34,093 nt of DNA from a virus. Below the pieces are notes generated by a model. The model was not told where the DNA came from and did not search any database. It saw nothing but the letters and a program-made list of their open reading frames with translations. The stretch spans positions 1 to 34,093 of the IMG/VR virus record IMGVR_UViG_3300027763_000016, one strand, 5' to 3'. This document shows positions 19,232-20,586 of the stretch, in pieces. The translations under genes were made by a program, and so were the position numbers. Every line of letters starts with the position of its first letter. Position 1 is the first letter of the stretch.

Positions 19232-19405
19232 ATGTCAGAACTAAAACCATTCCTAGTGCGATTGCGCCCAGATGTTAGAACATTGTTAGAGCAGACGGCC
19301 CAGGAGCGAAAGAAACCCATAGCCAGCATTATTAATGAAGAGTTAAGAGCATCTCTTGGTAAGCAAGGAGATCTAGGCCAGCGTCTAACGCAGATGCTTG
19401 CGTGA
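19232..19405 (+). CDS. Ribbon-helix-helix DNA-binding protein, 57 aa
   Basis: A 57-codon gene with a CAGGAGAAAAG ribosome binding site, overlapping rusA by 4 nt (GTGA). The product, starting MSELKPFLVRLRPDVRTLLE, has an Arc/CopG layout: a beta strand FLVRLR (7-12), helix A to about residue 26, then KPIASIINEELRASL as helix B, and a short basic or polar tail. Such proteins dimerise and insert the strand pair into the major groove at palindromes. As the first gene after the divergent control region it is the best candidate for the factor that reads the local inverted repeats. Confidence 0.7.
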   Translation: MSELKPFLVRLRPDVRTLLEQTAQERKKPIASIINEELRASLGKQGDLGQRLTQMLA

Positions 19406-19761
19406 TAATCCTTAACCTACCATTTCCACCGAGCGTCAACACCTATTACAGGCGTGGCGCTCATGCCACCTACATGAGTAAGCAAGGGCGCGAATATAAG
19501 AAGGCCGTAGCTAATTACATCTCCGAGTCAAACACTCCCAAACTGGGATCTGCCAGGCTTTATTTGGAAGTTGTTTTGTGGCCCAAGGATAAGCGCAAAT
19601 ACGATATAGATAACCGCGTCAAGGCCTTACTGGATAGCCTCCAGGACGCTGGCGTATTCGATGACGATGAACAGATAGATCAGATCAATGTCTATCGCGG
19701 CAATGGAATATTTAAGGGTGGCCAGGCAAGAGTAATGATTGAGACATTGGAGACCGAATAA
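19402..19761 (+). CDS. rusA: RusA-family Holliday junction resolvase
   Basis: A 119-aa endonuclease that cuts four-way junctions symmetrically, here probably to clear branched recombination intermediates before packaging. Family marks are the N-terminal LPFPPSVNTYYRR, K-Y-D68-I-D70-N with the catalytic aspartates, and LLDSLQDAGVFDDDEQI with the third acidic site at residues 87-89. The length is normal for RusA (about 120 aa). The GTG start overlaps the RHH gene stop by 4 nt. Confidence 0.93.
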   Translation: MIILNLPFPPSVNTYYRRGAHATYMSKQGREYKKAVANYISESNTPKLGSARLYLEVVLWPKDKRKYDIDNRVKALLDSLQDAGVFDDDEQIDQINVYRGNGIFKGGQARVMIETLETE

Positions 19762-19782
19762 TGAAATATATTGAGAGGAATT

Positions 19783-20586
19783 ATGAATGAGTTGGCTTTA
19801 TTCTCAGGCGCTGGTGGAGGAATACTTGGGGGCAAACTGCTTGGATGGAGAACAGTCTGTGCCGTTGAGTGGGAATTATACCCAGCAAGCGTATTGTGCG
19901 CCAGACAAAATGACAAAATTCTCCCGACTTTCCCGATTTGGGATGATGTTCAAACCTTTGCCGGAACAAGCTGGCGAGGAATTGTTGATGTCGTATCAGG
20001 CGGCTTTCCATGCCAAGACATCTCAGCCGCTGGAAAAGGAACAGGAATTACCGGAACCCGAAGTTCAATGTGGAAACACATGGCAAGGATTATTGGCGAA
20101 GTACAACCCAAATTTGTCTTTGTGGAAAACTCCTCAATGCTTACTAGAAGAGGACTTGGAACAGTCATTGGAGACCTGGCCAGCATGGGGTATGACGCGG
20201 AATGGGGAGTCATATCAGCGGCAGATGTTGGAGCCAAACACTTGCGAAAGAGAATATGGATTGTTGCCGGACAATGTGACTTTCTTTCACACTCCAACAA
20301 CGGGATCAAGCGGTGGGAGCAACAGTCGCAAGGCGATGGCCAAAAGGAATGTAACCTGGCCAACTCCAACAACGGGAACCGGAGGGGGGAGCGCCGGAGG
20401 ATCGGGAGCGAGGAAAATAGCCAAAGCAAATGGAACCTATGTCCCATCTTCAATCAACCCGAACCTTTACGAGTGGTTGATGGGTTGGCCGCAAGAGTGG
20501 ACAGACTTAAAGCCGTTGGAAATGGACAAGTTCCACAAGTGGCGGCTCTTGCATGGCGAGTTCTTAGTGAAAGATTAAAGACATGA
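19783..20586 (+). CDS. C5-cytosine DNA methyltransferase
   Basis: A 267-aa enzyme that adds a methyl group from SAM to C5 of cytosine in a short target site, probably masking phage DNA from host restriction. In order: motif I FSGAGGG (7-13), motif IV GGFPC77Q with the catalytic cysteine, motif VI E115-N-S, motif VIII-like HLRKR (153-157), a variable Asn/Gln/Arg-rich target-recognition region (170-230), then the C-terminal RLKAVGNGQVP. I chose the ATG at 19783, with GAGAGGAATT just upstream, over a TTG at 19771. The last bases overlap the zinc-ribbon gene (ATGA). A second long frame occupies the same DNA. Confidence 0.92.
   Translation: MNELALFSGAGGGILGGKLLGWRTVCAVEWELYPASVLCARQNDKILPTFPIWDDVQTFAGTSWRGIVDVVSGGFPCQDISAAGKGTGITGTRSSMWKHMARIIGEVQPKFVFVENSSMLTRRGLGTVIGDLASMGYDAEWGVISAADVGAKHLRKRIWIVAGQCDFLSHSNNGIKRWEQQSQGDGQKECNLANSNNGNRRGERRRIGSEENSQSKWNLCPIFNQPEPLRVVDGLAARVDRLKAVGNGQVPQVAALAWRVLSERLKT
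19787..20578 (+). CDS. Overprinted frame inside the methyltransferase gene, 263 aa
   Basis: An ATG 4 nt after the methyltransferase ATG opens a second frame that runs stop-free to 8 nt before the methyltransferase stop. The product is Trp-rich and begins MSWLYSQALVEEYLGANCLD. It contains LSRFGMMFKPL, SLETWPAWGMTRNGE, two Pro-Thr repeats (HTPTTGSSGG and WPTPTTGTGGG) and ends with WLMGWPQEWTDLKPLEMDKF. From memory, phage genomes contain many hypothetical proteins with this start, the WPTPT repeats and this end. The same ribosome binding site could serve both ATGs. A chance frame shadowing a conserved gene remains possible. Confidence 0.5.
   Translation: MSWLYSQALVEEYLGANCLDGEQSVPLSGNYTQQAYCAPDKMTKFSRLSRFGMMFKPLPEQAGEELLMSYQAAFHAKTSQPLEKEQELPEPEVQCGNTWQGLLAKYNPNLSLWKTPQCLLEEDLEQSLETWPAWGMTRNGESYQRQMLEPNTCEREYGLLPDNVTFFHTPTTGSSGGSNSRKAMAKRNVTWPTPTTGTGGGSAGGSGARKIAKANGTYVPSSINPNLYEWLMGWPQEWTDLKPLEMDKFHKWRLLHGEFLVKD

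Follow-up and report, generated by a model that had tools for sequence, protein, structure and literature searches.

A phage C5-cytosine methyltransferase gene with a fully overlapping second frame that probably encodes the motif-IX part of the same enzyme

The window, that is, the whole stretch of 34,093 nucleotides that was analysed, is a 34-kb virus contig carrying genes for tail, terminase, head-tail adaptor, major head protein and endolysin. A RusA-type resolvase gene (19402-19761) precedes a methyltransferase gene, the region of which also holds RecT, a YqaJ-type nuclease and a resolvase/recombinase; of the neighbouring genes tested, none was recognisable as coding for a restriction enzyme. 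Two plus-strand reading frames share the methyltransferase locus. The first, here called alpha, is a C5-cytosine methyltransferase frame of 267 aa (19783-20586) running from an ATG at 19783 to a TGA at 20584-20586, and the second, beta, is a 263-aa protein in the +1 frame (19787-20578) with its ATG at 19787 and a TAA at 20576-20578. The starts lie 4 nt and the stops 8 nt apart, and beta overlaps 263 of the 267 alpha codons. A first-pass annotation had described both frames as open between these positions, and direct reading bore this out; the two pairings that it quoted, RLKAVGNGQVP with WTDLKPLEMDKF and LANSNN with WPTPTT, are likewise correct. A Shine-Dalgarno-like AGAGGA (19774-19779, plus strand) is located 3 nt ahead of the alpha ATG and 7 nt ahead of the beta ATG. 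Since both ATGs sit behind this one element, a single ribosome-binding site could serve both starts.

Viral contigs were queried with each frame, and together with five phage records this yielded 118 distinct homologous genes, about half of them retrieved by the alpha query only. The beta ATG is kept in 117 of the 118, and in all except five the +1 frame continues without a stop almost to the alpha end, falling short by a few codons at most; the majority of the five exceptions have one late +1 stop. As alpha varies in length from 206 to 343 codons with the +1 frame still open, beta tracks alpha through insertions and deletions. The third frame contains 10-29 stops in nearly all homologues. At the alpha start position, ATG is present in 64 genes, TTG or GTG in 35 and no start codon in 19; with the beta ATG nearly invariant, the true alpha start may differ in some relatives. 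Two metagenome-assembled loci (L215, from 734, and L216, from 1442) have an open beta and a single in-frame stop inside alpha, which counts against a joint enzyme but may equally be a sequencing error, a pseudogene or recoding.

An open +1 frame might arise as a by-product of the alpha amino-acid sequence and codon bias, and some beta residues are dictated by conserved alpha motifs. However, when the alpha protein was kept and its own synonymous codons were permuted within each gene, the 118 homologues averaged 5.9 stops in the +1 frame, compared to an observed mean of 0.05. For a 100%-identical contig copy (L082), the shuffles averaged 8.0 stops and 0 of 300 were open. Observed and shuffled +1 stops in control neighbour genes of the same phages were 7.1 and 7.8, 14.2 and 14.2, and 6.3 and 6.7, respectively. 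Single-chain C5 enzymes and control genes showed many +1 stops (8-33), and no full-length open +1 frame was found in the single-chain C5 controls, which covered loci on both strands. The open +1 frame is not due to chance, and the by-product explanation, which the shuffles and controls refute and the selection tests given below contradict, retains next to no probability. Regarding the first-pass estimate of (61/64)^263 for a random open frame, the conclusion that the openness exceeds chance stands, while the model itself is rough and the codon-shuffle null is the better one. It had also been cautioned that part of an antisense frame is open, so that the region could be stop-poor by composition. 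This antisense frame (19950-20453, minus strand, 167 aa) has at least 160 open codons in 13 of the 118 homologues, with a mean of 4.1 stops. Because the antisense register is not conserved among the homologues, the caveat fails to explain the +1 frame, and the 167-aa antisense frame is probably a by-product.

Selection was assessed by an OLGenie-style count, in which changes are sorted by their effect in each frame. With this simple pairwise method, which is subject to noise from multiple hits at the small number of sites synonymous in both frames, a dNN/dNS of 0.30 [0.24-0.36] was obtained over the whole alpha gene, compared to 0.62-0.92 in five neighbouring control gene families on the same contigs. 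The synonymous entropy ratio of alpha was 0.48 versus 0.72-0.88 in five neighbouring control genes, i.e., synonymous change in the enzyme frame is reduced. Few changes affect alpha alone in motifs I-III (dNS 0.05). Across the variable region (20269-20448, plus strand; alpha residues 163-222), on the other hand, alpha-only changes are near neutral (dNS 0.68 [0.56-0.81]), while few changes affect beta alone (dSN 0.12 [0.09-0.16]), with a dNN/dNS of 0.18 [0.13-0.24]. Both frames are constrained where motifs IX and X overlap (dNN/dNS 0.21). The two frames divide the constraint between them along the gene: alpha prevails in motifs I-VIII and beta in the variable region. For the 5' quarter, the beta ratio test is not significant (dNN/dNS 0.79 [0.52-1.12]), and support for beta comes from codon-level conservation only: synonymous sites are near-fixed where beta spells MSWL(F/Y)SQ. 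The alpha codon for Asn2 is AAT in 112 of 112 genes, although AAT makes up 52% overall, and Glu3 (GAG, 103/113), Ala5 (GCT, 111/113) and Phe7 (TTC, 109/113) are near-fixed as well; Phe75 is TTT in 113/113.

Profile searches assigned alpha to Pfam PF00145 (DNA_methylase, E 3.4e-31), over residues 4-183 only, and to PHROG 363 (E 5.8e-66), and the PDB profile matches to M.HhaI and M.HaeIII cover only alpha residues 1-166 and approximately the first 170 residues of those enzymes. The plus-strand motifs comprise motif I (FSGAGGG, 19801-19821), with nearly invariant columns; motif IV with the catalytic PCQ (GGFPCQ, 19999-20016), with columns 73-78 invariant; motif VI (ENS, 20125-20133), with invariant E115 and N116; the motif VIII region (GAKHLRKRIWIVAG, 20230-20271), with invariant G150, H153, R155 and W159; and motif X (VDRLKAVGNGQVP, 20497-20535), lying over beta motif IX, with columns 240-251 nearly invariant. 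The columns of FSGAGG, PCQ, EN, HxRxR and RLKAxGNGQVP, as befits a large chain, are invariant or nearly so throughout. Alpha does not, however, unite motif IX and a recognition domain in one chain as M.HhaI and M.HaeIII do. None of 85 loci searched, mostly distant and bacterial homologues with a few single-chain enzymes, showed motif IX in the alpha frame, and neither did any of 86 further distinct loci. The motif occurs in the +1 frame in 61 of the 85 loci and never in the +2 frame, while several of the single-chain C5 controls carry it in frame. In the predicted model, alpha residues 176-247 have a pLDDT below 50, as if disordered. This low model confidence in alpha, together with the selection data, points to beta as the location of the recognition region, with 20269-20448 as its proposed target-recognition part.

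Beta contains a motif-IX-like segment (INPNLYEWLMGWPQEWTD) that sits over alpha motif X. The segment INPNLYEWLMGWPQEWTDL (20453-20509, plus strand) shares bases with that motif, and its E229, M232, W234 and T239 are invariant and the neighbouring residues nearly so. LNPxWVEWLMGWPxGWTD is conserved in the +1 frame, and the C-terminal consensus of beta reads GGxLNPxWVEWLMGWPLGWTDLKPLEMDK. When the beta profile was compared with single-chain C5 enzymes, the sole local match placed LNPxWVEWLMGFP on motif IX LTxREaxRLMGFP, which, at an hhalign P of 0.08 and with one template profile, is weak alone. All 58 aligned homologues match phrog_1008, 26627 and 35493 with their beta frames, of which phrog_1008 bears the label 'DNA methyltransferase', while 26627 and 35493 are listed as 'unknown function'. 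A Pfam search of the window's beta gave no match, a PDB profile search of beta gave chance-level matches only, and beta modelled alone was poor (pLDDT 52).

A relative with a different arrangement is located on contig IMGVR_UViG_3300033149_004736 (L416; 5158-6018, minus strand). Here, alpha terminates downstream of motif VIII, and a single beta-frame chain holds motif IX followed by motif X (RVNRLKCLGNAVVPQ). As phrog_1008 aligns to positions 30-311 of this chain, which is nearly all of it, the family may include other chains with motifs IX and X. We regard L416 as a relative in which the overlapping pair has been rearranged, and this single contig would connect the motif IX of the hidden frame with the motif X of the enzyme. 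The lack of an assigned function for beta in sequence and structure databases would also suit a distinct overprinted protein, such as an anti-restriction protein or a regulator, unconnected to catalysis by the enzyme. We nevertheless judge this very improbable, because alpha is missing exactly what beta has, beta sits over motif X, motifs IX and X stand in one chain in L416, and 78 of the 81 motif-IX core sites in viral contigs lie over an alpha frame, in the -1 register. An anti-restriction role, as suggested in the first-pass annotation, is not needed, given that beta resembles the missing recognition/motif-IX part of the enzyme.

A more distant set of 86 distinct loci was compiled with an alpha profile from six distant phages, supplemented by nine loci from a genome search with phrog_1008. 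From motif IV to motif X, the +1 frame is stop-free in 66 of these loci and the +2 frame in 0, while the 5' part of the +1 frame is stop-free in only 11. Therefore, the conserved beta core is the 3' two-thirds, and full-length overlap is a trait of the group to which the window belongs and of that group's closer relatives. A broken +1 frame beside a kept enzyme, which would speak against a second protein, was encountered in distant relatives only, where the breaks are mainly in the 5' part. A search for a conserved internal beta start in the distant relatives found none. Both this result and a +1 frame that is stopped in its 5' part and open only downstream would fit a programmed +1 frameshift after motif VIII, yielding a single chain of motifs I-VIII, recognition region and motif IX beside the unshifted alpha. 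However, such a mid-gene shift requires neither the beta ATG, nearly universal in the window's group, nor first codons fixed at synonymous sites, and the nested gene of Paenibacillus larvae phage BN12 (L478, MG727695.1) was deposited with an ATG of its own behind GGGAGG, so that we consider a frameshift very improbable. In this phage, BN12_62 (750-1820) and BN12_63 (952-1656) are each deposited as a DNA-cytosine methyltransferase. As in the window pair, the +1 frame holds the nested gene: BN12_63, which carries LNPDWVECLMGFPIGWTD, falls within the bounds of BN12_62. It differs in that its start is internal and it covers the middle and 3' part only. A survey paper lists both genes, the entries concerned giving no explanation in terms of subunits (PMC6070908).

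The nested core was found in Rhynn, ShroomBoi, a Porphyromonas phage, Lacticaseibacillus R9.2, Synechococcus S-H1, Stenotrophomonas SOVA965 and others. About 34 mycobacteriophage records and many proteobacterial genomes also contain it, and among phages it spans those of Mycobacterium, Paenibacillus, Vibrio, Salmonella and Synechococcus. The mycobacteriophage carriers include the ShroomBoi/Nitzel group. The copy in Salmonella phage S9-5 has a DNA relative in four E. coli genomes, with a prophage relative located in strain PT62. An alpha match is present in 1,298 phage records, with only alpha being counted. Annotation usually covers a single frame, namely alpha in most records and beta in Pseudomonas phPA-G, Vibrio 1.236.O and SOVA965. 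The first-pass annotation had pointed to separate hypothetical phage proteins with the patterns of the second frame; the examples checked (XAI65183.1 and AUR97051.1) turned out to be the same locus with the other frame annotated.

Two further observations concern other loci. Three Pseudomonas genomes (L249, L261 and L263) carry another C5-methyltransferase type (LFAGIGGFD...) of approximately 260-276 aa, in which motif IX was not found in frame and the open +1 stretch measures 265, 265 and 148 codons, respectively; these are perhaps a further overlapping pair. In Mycobacterium phage Jinglebell (L176, 1075-1443), the methylase alpha ends at 123 codons and homology resumes in the +1 register, which is apparently a single-base frameshift. 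The related phages Llama, OfUltron and Ochi17 also gave two-piece matches.

Overall, we propose, at a probability of roughly 0.87, that the two frames encode a two-polypeptide C5-methyltransferase of the M.EcoHK31I type, to which beta supplies the recognition/motif-IX domain. The first-pass idea of a second conserved product in the methyltransferase gene, possibly a partner of the enzyme, thereby gains support from conservation, selection and motif anatomy. Alpha would represent the large catalytic domain with the SAM site, the PCQ catalytic loop, ENS, motif VIII and a C-terminal motif X, without motif IX and without a structured small domain, and beta would be this small domain, with the variable recognition region and motif IX. 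Presumably both chains are translated, probably by independent initiation at the two neighbouring ATGs (ATGAATGAG) behind a common Shine-Dalgarno, and would then assemble as an active heterodimer like M.EcoHK31I. Phage methyltransferases usually serve as protection against host restriction, and we assume that methylation shields the phage DNA in this case as well.

M.EcoHK31I (YGGCCR), attributed to Lee, Kam and Shaw in 1995, reportedly has a small chain of approximately 176 aa that is nested in the large one in an alternative frame. The window pair resembles it in the nesting of the small chain in another frame, here +1, and differs in that beta spans nearly all of alpha, with its ATG directly after that of alpha, and in being phage-borne with no restriction enzyme among the neighbours tested. 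In M.EcoHK31I, motifs I-VIII and X belong to the larger polypeptide and motif IX to the smaller one (PMC3404938), and the window pair appears to share this motif split. The predicted recognition domain of M.EcoHK31I lies in the large subunit (PMC3404938), whereas selection in the window puts the recognition region in beta. Another naturally split C5-methyltransferase is M.AquI (CYCGRG) (PMC3404938), which L416 resembles in having motifs IX and X in the second chain. Its split is linear, however, with the variable region divided between the chains, while the window's alpha retains motif X and the genes overlap throughout. Two-polypeptide C5 enzymes are already known, and the variant at the present locus consists in genes that overlap over their full length, their starts separated by 4 nt. 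Among the papers searched, none on the dual-coding arrangement in phages was found; the ShiLan methylase paper was rejected as a precedent, its subject being an HNH endonuclease inserted out of frame.

As a rule, the proteins specified by overlapping genes are unrelated. The two frames described here seem to code for two domains of a single enzyme, which makes this an unusual evolutionary case. It seems fairly likely that a large share of the phage 'orphan' C5-methyltransferases are dual-coding genes, with the catalytic and DNA-recognition halves on the same bases, the recognition part in the hidden frame and the evolution of both locked together, in some lineages over the full length with starts 4 nt apart and one ribosome-binding site. 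Where only one frame of a phage methyltransferase is annotated, as in well-studied genes of mycobacteriophages and Paenibacillus phages, a required subunit may thus be missing, and cloned single-frame versions may be inactive without beta. Furthermore, PHROG 26627 and 35493, both of 'unknown function', and the mislabelled 1008 would gain a role.
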